DNA of 35,819 nt from NCBI GenBank assembly GCA_902513515.1, contig CABXNE010000009.1:1-35819 (forward strand). The letters are read 5' to 3'. A program made the translations under genes and the position numbers. Source of the DNA: an uncultured SAR86 cluster bacterium (GTDB lineage Bacteria; Pseudomonadota; Gammaproteobacteria; Magnimaribacterales; D2472). The notes under the pieces were generated by a model. That model made no database searches, was not told where the DNA came from, and saw only the letters and a program-made list of their open reading frames with translations. Positions 21,334 through 26,406 of the stretch are shown here, piece by piece. Numbering within the stretch: position 1 is the stretch's first letter; every line of letters starts with the position of its first letter.

Positions 21334-22389
21334 TTAATTTAAGCTTGCATTAATTTTTGCAAGTTTTTTTGCGCCAGGACACAGCTCTTTTTCAGCTAAT
21401 TGATTTAGAGGCGTGTCTGAGATATTTAAAATTTCAGCGTGATCTTTAACTTCTGGATTAATGAAGAGCAGCCCAGTTAATACTTTTCCATTTTTTTCAG
21501 CTTCATTTAAGCTTTGGATTGCTTGACCTTTATCTAGCGGGTTATATTTTTTGGAGAGTTTTTCTAGAGTTAACATTGCTCCATCATGTAAAGGAACGTC
21601 AACTTTAGTACCTTCTTTGTAGGTAGTTTTAATTTCTTTACCAATTGGAACAAAATCAAGTGAAGATACAGATTCATTATGTTCCCTGATGTGATCAAAG
21701 CTTTTAGTGGAACCCAGATGGTTATTGAATGTTACACAGGGAGAAATAATATCTATAAGTGAGAAGCCTTCAAACTTCATTGCTGCCTTTAGTAGAGGCA
21801 CCAGCTGTTGTTTATCTCCTGAAAAACTTCTTCCGACAAAACCTGCGCCAAGCTGTATTGCCATAGTCGGAAGGTCAATTGGTGCAAAGACATTCTCTTC
21901 ACCGTATTTACTTTTAGACCCTTGATCATTAGTTGCTGAGAATTGACCTTTGGTGAGACCGTAAGTTCCATTATTTTCTACAATATATGTAATATTGAGC
22001 TGCCTTCTTGCTGCGTGCATGAATTGCCCAATCCCTATTGCAGCAGTGTCTCCATCTCCAGAAACACCTAGATAAAGCAAGTCTTTATTACCTAAATTAG
22101 CTCCGGTAGCAACTGATGGCATTCTTCCATGGACAGAATTGAAACCATGAGCTTGATTTAGAAAATATGAGGGTGATTTAGACGAGCAACCAATTCCTGA
22201 GAGTTTTGCAATTTGATCTGAAGATATGCTTAAATCATAACAAGCCTCAATTACTGCTGCACTAATAGAATCGTGGCCGCATCCAGCACACAAAGTTGAA
22301 ATAGTTCCTTCATAATCTCGTCTTGTTAATCCAAGTTTATTTTTTTCAAGGTTTGGGTGATGATTAACGGGCTTAACAATGTAGGTCAT
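21334..22389 (-). CDS. korB: 2-oxoacid:acceptor oxidoreductase, beta subunit (TPP and Fe-S)
   Basis: This 351-residue protein binds thiamine diphosphate through S-G-D-G-D (110-114) to N-N-G (139-141). It carries the four cysteines that hold the [4Fe-4S] cluster in this family: Cys34 and Cys37 in C-A-G-C-G-H, Cys68 in G-I-G-C-S, and Cys218 in S-P-C-V-T. With the alpha subunit it oxidatively decarboxylates a 2-oxoacid to the acyl-CoA. The R-R-Q-L-N-I-T-Y-I-V-E-N-N-G-T-Y-G-L-T-K-G-Q segment resembles 2-oxoglutarate enzymes, but substrate choice is inferred. Its start overlaps the stop of the alpha-subunit gene by four bases. Confidence 0.9.
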   Translation of the reverse strand: MTYIVKPVNHHPNLEKNKLGLTRRDYEGTISTLCAGCGHDSISAAVIEACYDLSISSDQIAKLSGIGCSSKSPSYFLNQAHGFNSVHGRMPSVATGANLGNKDLLYLGVSGDGDTAAIGIGQFMHAARRQLNITYIVENNGTYGLTKGQFSATNDQGSKSKYGEENVFAPIDLPTMAIQLGAGFVGRSFSGDKQQLVPLLKAAMKFEGFSLIDIISPCVTFNNHLGSTKSFDHIREHNESVSSLDFVPIGKEIKTTYKEGTKVDVPLHDGAMLTLEKLSKKYNPLDKGQAIQSLNEAEKNGKVLTGLLFINPEVKDHAEILNISDTPLNQLAEKELCPGAKKLAKINASLN

Positions 22390-24218
22390 TTTATTTCCTC
22401 AGCAGGCTGCGAAGTATTTTTATTTAACAGTACATCAGAAATTGATTCTGAGATAAAGTTAGCAGTAATGGGTGATCCATCGAAACATAATATTGAAATA
22501 AATTTTTCTGGATTGACATTTCCCTCTGAGACAATAAGAGTTTTCATTTGAGCGTCTCTGTTTTGCTCAACAAGAAAAATAGTTTCATGCTGATCAATAA
22601 AATCCCAGACTTCTGGACCAAAAGGAAAAGATCTTATTCTCATTGCGTCTATTGGAAAACCTGAACAGGAGAGTTGATCTAAGGACTCCTGCATAGCTGC
22701 TTCAGTGCTGCCGAAGTATATCAATCCGTTTGAACTAGCATTAGTTTCTTGTTTGAATATTGGTTTAGGTAGAAATTTATAAGCACCTTCAAATTTTTTA
22801 AGAATTCTTGAAAGATTCCTTGCATTAACTTCCCCGTCCTCAATGTATCTTGCATATTCATCATGCGAGCTTCCGCGAGTAAAGTAAGCTCCTTTTTCAG
22901 GATGAGTTCCTGGAAGTGTTCTAAATGGAATTCCATCTCCATCAACATCAAGATACCTGCCCCATGATTCCATACTATCTAGATCATCTTTAGATAAAAC
23001 CTTTCCTCTATCGAATTTTTTATTATCATCCCACTCAAATTCTGGGCATGTCCAATCATTCATTCCAATGTCCAAGTCAGACAATACAAAAATAGGAGTT
23101 TGAAGTCGGTCTGATATATCAAATGAATCAGCTGAAAACTCAAAGCATTCTTTTGGATCAGAAGGTATTAGTATCACATGCTTGGTATCCCCATGAGAAG
23201 CATATGCGCATGACAGGATATCAGATTGTTGAGTTCTTGTTGGCATGCCGGTTGAAGGGCCGCCTCTTTGAATATTAAAAATTACCACTGGTATTTCTGC
23301 AAAATAAGCCAAACCAATAAACTCTGTCATTAATGAAATTCCTGGACCGCTGGTCGCTGTAAAAGCTCTTGCCCCATTCCAATTTGCCCCAATAGCCATT
23401 CCAATTGAAGCAAGCTCATCTTCGGCTTGAACAAAGGCAAATTTATTTTTACCAGTATTTTCATCAACTCTAAGCTGATCACAATATTTTTTGTAAGATT
23501 CTGCTAGGGATGTTGATGGGGTGATAGGGTACCAAGTGCATACAGTTGCTCCGCCATATACGCAGCCCAATCCTCCCGCATTATTTCCATTAGTGAGGAT
23601 CATTCCATCTGTAAGGTTTGTTTGATTGACCTTAATTTTACAAGCATCAACTAGATGTTTTTTTGCGTATTTAAAACCAATCTCTAAGGCCTGAACATTT
23701 GGAGCAATAAGTTTTTCTTTGCCTTTAAATTGCTCTTCAATCAGCTTGATAAAAATATCTTTATTGATATTCATTAAATATGAAAGGGCGCCAACATAGA
23801 CAAGGTTTTTAAATAACAGCCTGGTCTTAGGATTGTTAAATTCATCAACACATAAAGTAGTTAAAGGAACTTCAATGATATTAATATCTTCTCGTTTGAA
23901 GTCTCTTTTCCAAGATGAGTCATACAAAAGGTATCCCCCTGGATTAATTTCAGCTACATCTTGAGCATATGATTGGGGATTCATTGCGACCATAAAATCA
24001 ATACCAGCCTTTCGCCCTAAATATCCTTTTTCGCTTGCTCTTATTTCAAACCATGTTGGTAGACCTTGTATGTTGGATGGAAAAATATTTTTAGGACTGA
24101 CAGGGATGCCCGATCTAAATATCCCTTTTGCAAACATTTGGTTCGCGCTTGCTGAACCAGAACCGTTAACATTAGCAAATTTAATTACGAACTCATTGAT
24201 CGACGAAATCTTATTCAT
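22386..24218 (-). CDS. korA: 2-oxoacid:acceptor oxidoreductase, fused gamma-alpha subunit
   Basis: This 610-residue protein has an N-terminal gamma-type domain (about 8-185) joined to the alpha domain. The alpha domain begins at about 205 with G-N-x-A-G-G-L-G and the Y-P-I-T-P-S-T-S-L-A-E motif (230-240) that contacts CoA and substrate in this family. E-D-E-L-A-S-I-G-M-A-I-G-A and S-G-P-G-I-S-L-M-x-E-F follow, as in characterised 2-oxoacid ferredoxin oxidoreductases. The gamma-alpha fusion is usual for the KorA/VorA-type enzymes of aerobes. It overlaps both flanking genes by four bases, so the three should be made in fixed ratio. Confidence 0.9.
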   Translation of the reverse strand: MNKISSINEFVIKFANVNGSGSASANQMFAKGIFRSGIPVSPKNIFPSNIQGLPTWFEIRASEKGYLGRKAGIDFMVAMNPQSYAQDVAEINPGGYLLYDSSWKRDFKREDINIIEVPLTTLCVDEFNNPKTRLLFKNLVYVGALSYLMNINKDIFIKLIEEQFKGKEKLIAPNVQALEIGFKYAKKHLVDACKIKVNQTNLTDGMILTNGNNAGGLGCVYGGATVCTWYPITPSTSLAESYKKYCDQLRVDENTGKNKFAFVQAEDELASIGMAIGANWNGARAFTATSGPGISLMTEFIGLAYFAEIPVVIFNIQRGGPSTGMPTRTQQSDILSCAYASHGDTKHVILIPSDPKECFEFSADSFDISDRLQTPIFVLSDLDIGMNDWTCPEFEWDDNKKFDRGKVLSKDDLDSMESWGRYLDVDGDGIPFRTLPGTHPEKGAYFTRGSSHDEYARYIEDGEVNARNLSRILKKFEGAYKFLPKPIFKQETNASSNGLIYFGSTEAAMQESLDQLSCSGFPIDAMRIRSFPFGPEVWDFIDQHETIFLVEQNRDAQMKTLIVSEGNVNPEKFISILCFDGSPITANFISESISDVLLNKNTSQPAEEIK

Positions 24219-26218
24219 GAGTATACCTTGGCCTCTTCATACAAGAAGGTTTGCATGTCCCAAGCGCCTGTAGGGCATCTTTCAGCGCATAAGCCACAAT
24301 GCAGGCAGACATCTTCATCTTTAAACATGGTCCTTTTGGTTGGTAAGATCTTAGAAACCAATAAATCTTGTTCAATATTTAATGCAGGAATTCTTATATT
24401 TTGTCTCACCTCATCTTCAGGACCATTAAACATGAAATTAATACAATCGGTTGGGCAAATATCTACACAAGCATCGCACTCAATGCACAAACTTTCAGAA
24501 AAAATAGTTTGAACATCGCAATTCAAACATCTTTGAGCTTCTTCCATTGCCAGATTTTCATCGAAGCCTTTTTCAACCTCTATTTTTAAGCTTTTTAGAG
24601 CAACGTCTTGATCAGCCTTTGGAACTAGAAATCTTTTTGCTTGAGAGATGTCATTATCATAAGACCACTCATGTAACCCCATCTTTTGACTAACGAGATT
24701 CGTGCCAGGCTCCGGCCTTTTATTAATATCTTCATTTTGACAAAATTTATGAATAGAAATTGCAGCTTGGTGTCCATGTGCTGCTGCCCAAATAATATTT
24801 TCTGGACCCCAAGCAGCATCCCCACCAAAAAAAACCTTCGGATGAGTAGATTGAAAGGTTGTAGGGTTTACAACCGGCATATCCCACTCTCCAAATTCTA
24901 GACCAATATCTCTTTCTATCCACTCAAAGGAATTATCTTGACCAATAGCTACTAGCACATCATCACATTCAATAATGACAGGATCATCATCGGTTGGGAC
25001 CAGCGATCGATTACCTTTTGCATCAAAGACGGCTTCAACTTTTTGAAATTCCATTCCAGTTAGTTTTCCCTCATCATGAATAAATTTTTTAGGAACATGG
25101 TTTTCAAAAATTGGAATATTTTCCTCCATAGCATCTTCAATTTCCCATTCAGATGCTTTCATTTGCGAGAAAGGGCTTCTGACAACAACCTTTACGTCTT
25201 CAGCACCTAATCTTAAAGAGGATCTACAACAATCCATTGCTGTGTTCCCACCCCCCAAAACAATTACTTTTTTTCCAATAGAATCAATATGCTCAAAGGC
25301 AATACTTGTTAAAAAATCTATACCAATATGAATATTTGCTTTTGCTTCTTTGCGACCTTCAATGTTTAAATCTTTGCCTTTTGGTGCTCCAGTCCCCACA
25401 AAGACTGCATCAAAATCTTCATGTAAAAAATTTTTAAGGCTAGTAATTTCAGAATTAAATTTTGTATTTAATCCCATATCTAGAATCTGATTAACCTCAG
25501 CATCTAAGACTTCCTCTGGTAGTCTGAATGATGGAATATTGGTTCGCATTAAGCCTCCGGCCTGAGGATCTTTTTCAAATAGCGTACATTCGTACCCCAT
25601 GACAATTAGATCTCGCGCAACAGTTAATGATGCCGGCCCACCTCCAATGAGGGCAATTTTCTTTCCATTACTGCTTGAAGGAGCTTTAGGTAATAAATCA
25701 GAAACATCATCCTTAAAATCAGCTGCGACTCTTTTGAGCCTACATATAGCAACAGGTTTCTCATGGGTTCTTGTTCTTCTACATGCAGGTTCACAAGGCC
25801 TGTCGCATGTTCGACCAAGGATTCCAGGAAATACATTTGATTCCCAATTAATCATATAGGCTTCTGTATACTCATTTTGTGAAATTTTTCTGATATATTC
25901 CGGTACAGGCGTGTGAGCAGGGCATGCATACTGACAATCAACAACTTTATGGTAATACTGAGGATCAGAGGTATCAGTTATCGGCATAAAAGTTTTCACG
26001 GAACTCTTTCCATTGGATTGTTTAAGGTTTTCTTTGGCTGCGAATATTTGGGACTTAAAACCCTCAACTACAGCTTCTCTGAGTTTTTGAGCTTCAGATA
26101 AATCATGAGTGTGTAATGAGGTTCTTAGATCAAAACCTAATTCTTTTCGAAGGTCTTTGGGAACAGCAACTTTTACCCAATAGGTATTATGTCGTTTAAA
26201 TAAGTATTTCGTATCCAT
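24215..26218 (-). CDS. korC: GltD-like NAD(P)H/FAD/Fe-S oxidoreductase with recombinase-type N-terminal domain
   Basis: This 667-residue protein has four parts. Residues 1 to about 65 resemble the N-terminal arm-binding domain of tyrosine recombinases (K-Y-L-F-K-R-x-N-T-Y-W-V-K-V-A-V-P-K). Residues 85-170 form a GltD-type Fe-S region with Cys95, Cys99, Cys138, Cys142, Cys146 and Cys159. An FAD Rossmann domain has GGGPAS at 192-197, and an NAD(P)H domain has GGGNTA at 322-327. The last ~100 residues are a two-cluster ferredoxin (C-I-E-C-D-A-C-V-D-I-C-P and C-L-H-C-G-L-C-A-E-R-C-P). It should pass electrons from the Kor subunits to NAD(P)+, as in the 2-oxoglutarate:NADP+ oxidoreductase of Azoarcus evansii, whose gamma subunit is GltD-like. 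The start is backed by GGGGAG 9 bases upstream; the internal Met78 has no good ribosome binding site. The symbol is by analogy. Confidence 0.85.
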   Translation of the reverse strand: MDTKYLFKRHNTYWVKVAVPKDLRKELGFDLRTSLHTHDLSEAQKLREAVVEGFKSQIFAAKENLKQSNGKSSVKTFMPITDTSDPQYYHKVVDCQYACPAHTPVPEYIRKISQNEYTEAYMINWESNVFPGILGRTCDRPCEPACRRTRTHEKPVAICRLKRVAADFKDDVSDLLPKAPSSSNGKKIALIGGGPASLTVARDLIVMGYECTLFEKDPQAGGLMRTNIPSFRLPEEVLDAEVNQILDMGLNTKFNSEITSLKNFLHEDFDAVFVGTGAPKGKDLNIEGRKEAKANIHIGIDFLTSIAFEHIDSIGKKVIVLGGGNTAMDCCRSSLRLGAEDVKVVVRSPFSQMKASEWEIEDAMEENIPIFENHVPKKFIHDEGKLTGMEFQKVEAVFDAKGNRSLVPTDDDPVIIECDDVLVAIGQDNSFEWIERDIGLEFGEWDMPVVNPTTFQSTHPKVFFGGDAAWGPENIIWAAAHGHQAAISIHKFCQNEDINKRPEPGTNLVSQKMGLHEWSYDNDISQAKRFLVPKADQDVALKSLKIEVEKGFDENLAMEEAQRCLNCDVQTIFSESLCIECDACVDICPTDCINFMFNGPEDEVRQNIRIPALNIEQDLLVSKILPTKRTMFKDEDVCLHCGLCAERCPTGAWDMQTFLYEEAKVYS
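26024..26218 (-). other. Recombinase arm-binding-like domain fused to the flavoprotein
   Basis: The first ~65 codons of the GltD-like gene read as Y-L-F-K-R-x-N-T-Y-W-V-K-V-A-V-P-K-D-L, then L-R-T-S-L-x-T-H-D-L-S-E-A-Q-K-L-R-E-A-V. This is the strand-strand-strand-helix pattern at the front of many phage-type integrases (a DUF6538-like domain). No recombinase catalytic domain follows. It is in frame with the enzyme and has its own strong Shine-Dalgarno. Confidence 0.75.
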
Positions 26219-26406
26219 ATAATTTGGCTCCCCTCCAAATTAGCTATAAGGTACAGGAAAAAACCTTTACTTATAGGAATATCTAGTTTTACCATATACA
26301 TATAATAGGCAATATGCAACCTAATTTTTATTTAAATGTTTATGTACCTTTAAGTCAGAAATTTTGTATGTTATAAACATAAATAAGATATATTTTTATA
26401 CAATAA

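Follow-up and report, generated by a model that had tools for sequence, protein, structure and literature searches.

The arm-binding domains of tyrosine integrases include the lambda, Tn916 and P4 types. The subject of the present analysis is a domain of integrase kind, DUF6538, which heads an electron-transfer flavoprotein of the KOR operon in an uncultured SAR86 cluster bacterium (contig CABXNE010000009.1; the whole stretch of 35,819 nucleotides that was analysed is called the window hereafter). Among the closest described systems, PutA is a trifunctional flavoenzyme with an N-terminal ribbon-helix-helix DNA-binding domain (PMC5293562). The window protein resembles it as a flavoenzyme with an N-terminal domain of DNA-binding type, with operator-like sites at its own promoter and with a proposed autogenous control, whereas its domain belongs to an integrase family instead of the ribbon-helix-helix type, the same domain is found on six kinds of carrier, and repression and switching are here postulated. 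With the integrase arm-binding domains (classification in PMC8138268) the modelled domain shares its small size, its N-terminal position and three strands with a long helix, to which the model adds one short helix; short repeats adjoin the gene as well. Unlike the integrases, the fusions lack a core-binding or catalytic domain and are found on metabolic or membrane proteins. Integrases with PF20172 (DUF6538) belong to the same Pfam family and have similar repeats just upstream, but they retain the catalytic domain. MrpR from prophage SPbeta is described in PMC10516654 as a repressor with a tyrosine-recombinase fold that has lost its recombinase function. It is likewise a recombinase-like DNA-binding regulator of a repeated element, but it keeps the overall fold and represses the prophage, whereas the SAR86 enzyme keeps the N-terminal domain only. 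A search of the paper library used found none naming DUF6538, and no such fusion is described in the titles and abstract openings covered, those of PMC11582366 and PMC8138268 among them. The domain on unrelated proteins, GGTACA upstream of the carriers, the 12-13 bp repeats at other DUF6538 genes and a tree suggesting two captures are new here.

The explanation preferred here, with a probability of about 0.7, is that captured integrase operators and a DNA-binding DUF6538 form an autoregulatory module, and that the enzyme in the window is a trigger enzyme autoregulating the KOR operon. Within one set of tyrosine integrases, DUF6538 would be the part that recognises specific DNA sequences, namely short repeats, GGTACA and variants, directly in front of the integrase gene itself. 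SAR86 and Woeseiaceae-related bacteria would have captured this 5' end, consisting of operators and N-terminal domain, probably twice, and it would now head other genes there. The KOR flavoprotein would then bind AAGGTACA sites at its own promoter and control its operon, presumably by repression and not by activation, and by analogy with PutA the state of its FAD or iron-sulphur (Fe-S) clusters may alter binding. By homology, enzyme and putative DNA-binding domain are in one chain, and operator-like sites are found in its own promoter region, as in a trigger enzyme. The protein fits an autogenous regulator because an integrase-type domain is carried by the first protein of the operon, candidate sites are clustered at the promoter and the same pairing occurs in the parent family.

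The initial annotation had read the fused frame as an integrase-type N-terminus joined in frame to a GltD-like enzyme, without a recombinase catalytic domain, and profile searches agree with it. The protein, encoded on the minus strand (Table 1), scores 38.3 bits against PF20172 (curated cut-off, 27) and is thus a member of the family; residues 1-76 alone match DUF6538 in Pfam with an E value of 1.4e-10. No recombinase catalytic family is found among the 25 Pfam families displayed, of 26 matching the whole fused protein at E <= 1, and on these the protein does not qualify as a tyrosine recombinase. The best of 149 NCBIfam families is PRK12771 (NAD(P)-binding, GltD/NfnB-like; 412.3 bits, E 3.1e-123), to which the protein is related without being a member, the cut-off being 516. 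The gene that follows belongs to OAFO_sf (2-oxoacid:acceptor oxidoreductase alpha). A full-length AlphaFold model of the fused protein had a mean pLDDT of 50 and was discarded.

The fusion is conserved across SAR86 under purifying selection. It is found at full length in 20 of 60 genomes, the window's own counted, and in one more it is cut by a contig end. Ten further genomes of the genus align across residues 1-666 or 1-667 with 89-99% identity, and the leader GGAGGGGAG is exact in 10 of the 11 genus sequences, L010 having AGAGGGGGG. Start and domain are therefore shared by the relatives, which do not begin at Met78 with an unconserved upstream part. In 15 aligned full-length proteins the invariant residues include Y5, L6, K8, R9, W14, V15, K16, V19, P20, G28, D30, L31, R32, A43 and R47, and the linker is variable. 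The ratio of non-synonymous to synonymous substitution rates (dN/dS) for residues 4-58 was 0.042, 0.090, 0.088 and 0.068 in four within-genus pairs, and 0.288, 0.381 and 0.150 in three pairs of greater distance; for one further distant pair no value could be computed. The fusion is kept in three SAR86 families as well as in Woeseiaceae-related genomes.

DUF6538 is N-terminal on six kinds of carrier, which are mostly redox or Fe-S proteins and mutually unrelated. Those found in SAR86 are the KorC flavoprotein, IscS, the Rieske protein PetA and a membrane-anchored protein, read manually from its C-terminal hydrophobic stretch as tail-anchored (TA); by similar reading, TA and Rieske proteins seem to have a common topology of cytoplasmic domain, linker and membrane helix. 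Across 203 genomes of the window's order, PF20172 has a match in 120, one in each, a few of them integrases. With two refined models, strong type A matches (at least 102.9 bits) were found in 72 genomes and strong type B matches (at least 108.8 bits) in 49, and no genome had two or both (G027 has a true integrase), so that a single strong copy outside integrases is present in 121 of the 203. Frame length served to sort the carriers, apart from G188 (read as KorC) and G009, in which a contig end truncates the frame; type A carriers comprise 60 of KorC type and 12 of IscS type, the latter read directly in seven genomes; type B carriers, sorted likewise and with examples read, comprise 40 of membrane-anchored type and nine of Rieske type. 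One example of each carrier was identified above the family cut-off for IscS (TIGR02006), Rieske (TIGR01416) and the NfnA-like reductase (PRK06222), and KOR domains were confirmed by profile search in a KorGA example. DUF6538 itself passes its cut-off in the examples of Rieske (27.9 bits), KorGA (37.6) and the NfnA-like protein (42), falls just short of it in the TA example (26.8), and lies under it in some carriers of family f3 (19.6-26.7); in the IscS example it is not listed at E 1e-5 and reached 24.7 bits in the order-wide scan. A weak type B match with internal stops (G105:C1:388550-388669) is likely a decaying copy.

The type A model matches 7 of 369 genomes of the class, one of them strongly outside SAR86 (G368), and 21 of 196 genomes of the order of G368, three of these being weaker and integrase-like. 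The carriers in that order are the KOR gamma-alpha subunit (KorGA) and an NfnA/PyrK-like subunit. This order is termed Woeseiaceae-related because named Woeseiaceae loci share its carrier and group with it. A scan of genome contigs with one pattern gave 66 loci, mainly from SAR86 or gammaproteobacteria lacking a finer name, together with three Woeseiaceae metagenome-assembled genomes, two records labelled Bacteroidota and one weak SAR324 match. The Bacteroidota-labelled loci (L162 and L211, recorded as Cytophagales and Flavobacteriaceae) are probably misbinned contigs, since their domains sit within SAR86 clades. Profile scans of viral contigs with both domain alignments confirmed no relatives, and a PHROGs search gave no match.

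Upstream regions were collected for 126 genes (125 carriers and one SAR86 integrase), after exact duplicates and regions shorter than 150 nucleotides had been dropped. Within 250 nucleotides upstream, GGTACA occurs on either strand in 118 of the 125 carrier genes: KorC 54/54, IscS 13/13, KorGA 15/15, NfnA 6/6, Rieske 7/7 and TA 23/30, the last rising to 29/30 if GAGTACA is also counted. The integrase has it too (1/1), and shuffles over all groups gave 2.5-11%. An unbiased scan of 6-mers places GGTACA and AGGTAC in the top three for KorC, IscS, KorGA and NfnA; ATGTAC and GGGTAC lead in TA, and GGGTAC is second in Rieske. Control open reading frames (ORFs) were taken from 41 loci (the window, L131-L150 and L243-L262) after removal of 32 ORFs at carrier starts. 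GGTACA precedes 35 of these 392 in all. Away from carriers, 22 of 372 have one or more copies and three have two or more, and the figure is 13 of 20 for ORFs starting less than 600 nucleotides from a carrier start, mostly divergent neighbours that share the spacer. Site density is 0.7-2.5 per 100 bp in the 100-200 nucleotides before the carrier start; elsewhere within 1.5 kb of carrier starts most bins hold 0-0.2. A sequence logo gives flanks of AAGGTACA in type A and TATGRGTACA in type B, and it informs on the flanks only, the sites having been chosen by RGTACA. Counted by their first 30 residues, the distinct genes are 33 KorC, 12 IscS, 21 KorGA plus NfnA, 20 TA and five Rieske.

The window contains four copies of AAGGTACA against 1.04 expected, two of them at the fusion promoter. 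The proximal site lies in TTTCCTGTACCTTAT, which is invariant in all 11 aligned genus sequences. Pairs of AAGGTACA within 200 bp are found in the window's genome at the fusion promoter only, and the sole cluster in G037, a genome of one contig, is its KOR promoter. A clear domain-free orthologue of KorGA (L368, 58% identity) has no GGTACA in about 1.3 kb upstream. In the places examined, clustered sites were not found between genes elsewhere. A wider regulon is unsupported, the further clusters of AAGGTACA or TGGGTACA that were inspected (L263-L267, L270 and L271) being inside coding sequences. At L272 the cluster is at and inside the TA gene itself. In TA genes ATGAGTACAAAT encodes the MSTN start and stretches of the NVPI-type linker contain TGTACCCAT, and on this reading several sites in a row may be held by a membrane protein whose domain is of DNA-binding type.

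The same pairing of domain and repeats is seen in other DUF6538 genes, mostly integrases. PF20172 is matched in 23 of the 369 genomes searched at class level and in 81 of 319 at phylum level. From these, 89 loci were chosen, 40 of them picked from the phylum list because their domain was almost complete; the hand selection had excluded two carriers and four partial matches, and nine loci were then removed because they had no start, contained a stop or had a short flank. Among the 80 analysed, 45 have a direct repeat (at least 7 of 8 matches at a period of 12 or 13 bp) within 75 nucleotides of the start, compared with seven farther upstream and 3.3% in shuffles. For the other periods between 8 and 30 bp the share is 0-7%. 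GGTACA lies within 75 nucleotides of the start in 17 and farther upstream in three (shuffles, 3.1%). In the 30 frames of at least 280 residues DUF6538 was present in all, Phage_integrase in 21 and the repeat in 16; the Phage_integrase figures cover these long frames, the remaining 50 being short or cut short. It is thus common for these genes to have repeats beside their own start.

A tree built from 144 domains over 71 columns, whose bootstrap had not settled, supports the integrase relationship that had been proposed for the N-terminus. Type A forms a single clade (100/98), as do TA and Rieske together (99/97); the SAR86 integrase L039 adjoins the latter (99/89) and other integrases lie around it (100/88). 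The integrase label requires two changes on this tree, which suggests two captures from integrases as the simplest reading, the deeper forks being weak.

At the KOR loci read, the carrier subunit changes and the domain stays on the first KOR/Nfn gene. At ten SAR86 loci it is on the first KOR gene, which is GltD-like. Among the 15 Woeseiaceae-related loci whose ORF table kept the carrier, KorGA carries it in ten, with no KOR/Nfn gene ahead; in the other five it is on the NfnA-like gene, with the GltD-like gene and a domain-free KorGA behind. At SAR86 loci of families f2 and f3 the KOR operon is divergent from the isc genes; six f3 IscS loci have no KOR operon at this place, and there the domain heads the neighbouring iscS instead. 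Both f2 loci have an Rrf2-family (IscR-like) gene placed between the KOR operon and iscS, and none was seen at the f3 loci read. A broader proposal, which is given somewhat less than an even chance, is that the captured piece (probably taken up twice) is a portable cassette that has moved between the first genes of redox or Fe-S operons and lets whichever protein carries it (KOR subunits, IscS, Rieske protein) both sense and repress for the operon that encodes this carrier. If this is true, the cassette would also control Fe-S assembly in f3 SAR86, where the sites are between kor and isc and the locus shows no IscR-like gene.

The initial annotation had offered three explanations, namely a remnant of a past integration that became the new start, a repurposed protein-interaction domain and a moonlighting DNA-binding redox sensor. 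The DNA-binding part of the last gains most, because similar sites precede all six carrier kinds and other DUF6538 genes, mostly integrases; its redox-sensing part is hypothetical. The first holds only for the origin, an integrase 5' end having seemingly been captured with its sites, but a stray remnant of one integration is ruled out by the conservation, the dN/dS values and the many carriers. A variant of it, in which the sites are relics of integrase arm-type (att) sites and the fusion merely marks where an element once inserted at gene 5' ends, as a passive scar, would suit the grouping of the domains with integrases and the similar repeats at DUF6538 integrases; it is disfavoured as very improbable, given the conservation under purifying selection in the SAR86 families and Woeseiaceae-related genomes and a phmmer comparison of seven integrases with the ORFs of the 41 loci, in which, besides carriers matched through the domain, only an integrase locus (L262) was hit and no recombinase gene was found beside the fusions. 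A protein-interaction or targeting module for the carrier complexes, with incidental upstream sites, is judged unlikely: that carriers are mainly redox or Fe-S proteins and that TA and Rieske share one topology by manual reading speak for it, but both the GGTACA-type sites before six carrier kinds and other DUF6538 genes and the shift of carrier subunit, with the domain kept on the first KOR/Nfn gene, are left unexplained.

Two further explanations place the function in the leader. A number of sites include AAGG and coincide in part with the ribosome-binding region (-7 to -17), so the module might be a portable promoter, ribosome-binding site and start with a functionless peptide, AAAGG in the motif being the Shine-Dalgarno sequence. 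The chance of this is slim, as within the genus dN/dS of the domain is 0.042-0.090, SAR86 KorC sites are also found at -106 to -186 and on both strands, and the top 6-mers in the unbiased scan extend past AAGG to GTACA. Alternatively, the domain could act on messenger RNA, binding the leader repeats as RNA and controlling translation. Sites of Woeseiaceae-type carriers, TA, Rieske and integrases are mostly in one orientation and often near the start, and in the leader of the window gene a hairpin surrounds the Shine-Dalgarno sequence; this reading is nevertheless thought highly improbable, since SAR86 KorC sites occur in both orientations and far upstream and since integrase arm-binding domains bind DNA, with which PMC8138268 agrees.

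Several observations weigh against autoregulation by a captured module. The distal site, at about -130, has its exact form in no more than four of the 11 genus sequences (shifted in one of these) and is degenerate in seven, so that a loop between two sites is not conserved; number, spacing and orientation of sites also vary among carriers. Sites occur inside genes at 0.8-1.4 per 100 bp in the first 100 nucleotides of KorC, IscS and TA, other in-gene bins reaching 0.73. Many of the upstream regions belong to closely related genomes and do not count as independent. Across the window GGTACA by itself shows no enrichment (7 against 6.9 expected), and AAGGTACA occurs 16 times in the window's genome, less often than a reversed control (47), with single sites elsewhere. 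Six domain-free KOR loci were available as controls, of which L368 is the single clear orthologue, the other five being more distant and some operon-internal or near a contig end. No strong non-integrase copy is found in 82 of the 203 order genomes, some of them single-contig, which makes the module dispensable, and 35 of the 80 DUF6538 genes are without the 7/8 repeat at 12-13 bp, many of the repeats differing from GGTACA. Fold comparison gives weak matches: Foldseek with the domain model gave nothing significant (best E 1.2), and the match to the P4-like integrase domain 3rmp_C (Z 4.2, 50 aligned residues, 2.8 A) ranks fourth, behind mitoribosomal chains, with an AP2 (ERF) domain tenth (Z 3.6). 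The arm-domain match is only suggestive because the fold lists are headed by unrelated chains.

Table 1. Features of the fused gene, its operon and its promoter region in the window
Feature	Position	Strand	Basis
Fused protein, DUF6538 + GltD/NfnB-like Fe-S flavoprotein, 667 aa, first KOR operon gene	24215..26218	-	ORF list, Pfam, NCBIfam
DUF6538 domain, residues 5-53, predicted beta-beta-alpha-beta-alpha	26060..26206	-	Pfam E 1e-9; model mean pLDDT 92
Variable linker, about residues 59-80	25979..26044	-	Length and sequence differ among relatives
Fer4_20 domain, residues 94-169	25712..25939	-	Pfam
Pyr_redox_2 domain, residues 187-482	24773..25660	-	Pfam
Two C-terminal 4Fe-4S motifs, about residues 577-652	24263..24490	-	Pfam
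KOR gamma-alpha subunit	22386..24218	-	TIGR03710 OAFO_sf 559.8 bits, above cut-off 482.75
KOR beta-like subunit	21334..22389	-	Best model TIGR02177, 188.1 bits, below cut-off 261.9
Leader inverted repeat AATTTGG-AGGGGAG-CCAAATT	26221..26241	-	Shine-Dalgarno in loop and beside
Operator-like site AAGGTACA (TGTACCTT on gene strand, about -37 to -30)	26248..26255	+	Motif count, genus alignment
Promoter-like TTGCAT-N17-TATGGT between the two operator-like sites	26291..26319	-	Manual reading; conserved stretch in genus alignment
Second operator-like site AAGGTACA, about -132 to -125	26343..26350	-	Motif count, genus alignment

The promoter-like element of Table 1 was not listed by a promoter scan, whose sole match was on the plus strand and below the shuffle mean. 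In the leader inverted repeat, the relative L010 alters both members of one pair (G-C to A-T), and this paired change suggests a conserved hairpin.

At the six f3 loci in which the KOR operon is absent (L135-L138, L148 and L150), its place is occupied by an acetolactate-synthase gene (PRK08322 in one example), accompanied in four of the six by an acylating-aldehyde-dehydrogenase-like gene; a non-homologous replacement of the step from 2-oxoacid to acyl-CoA is possible. In an isc operon of f3 SAR86 (L031:3996-4721), a single protein of 242 aa combines a 2Fe-2S ferredoxin domain with an Fe-S_biosyn (IscA-like) domain.

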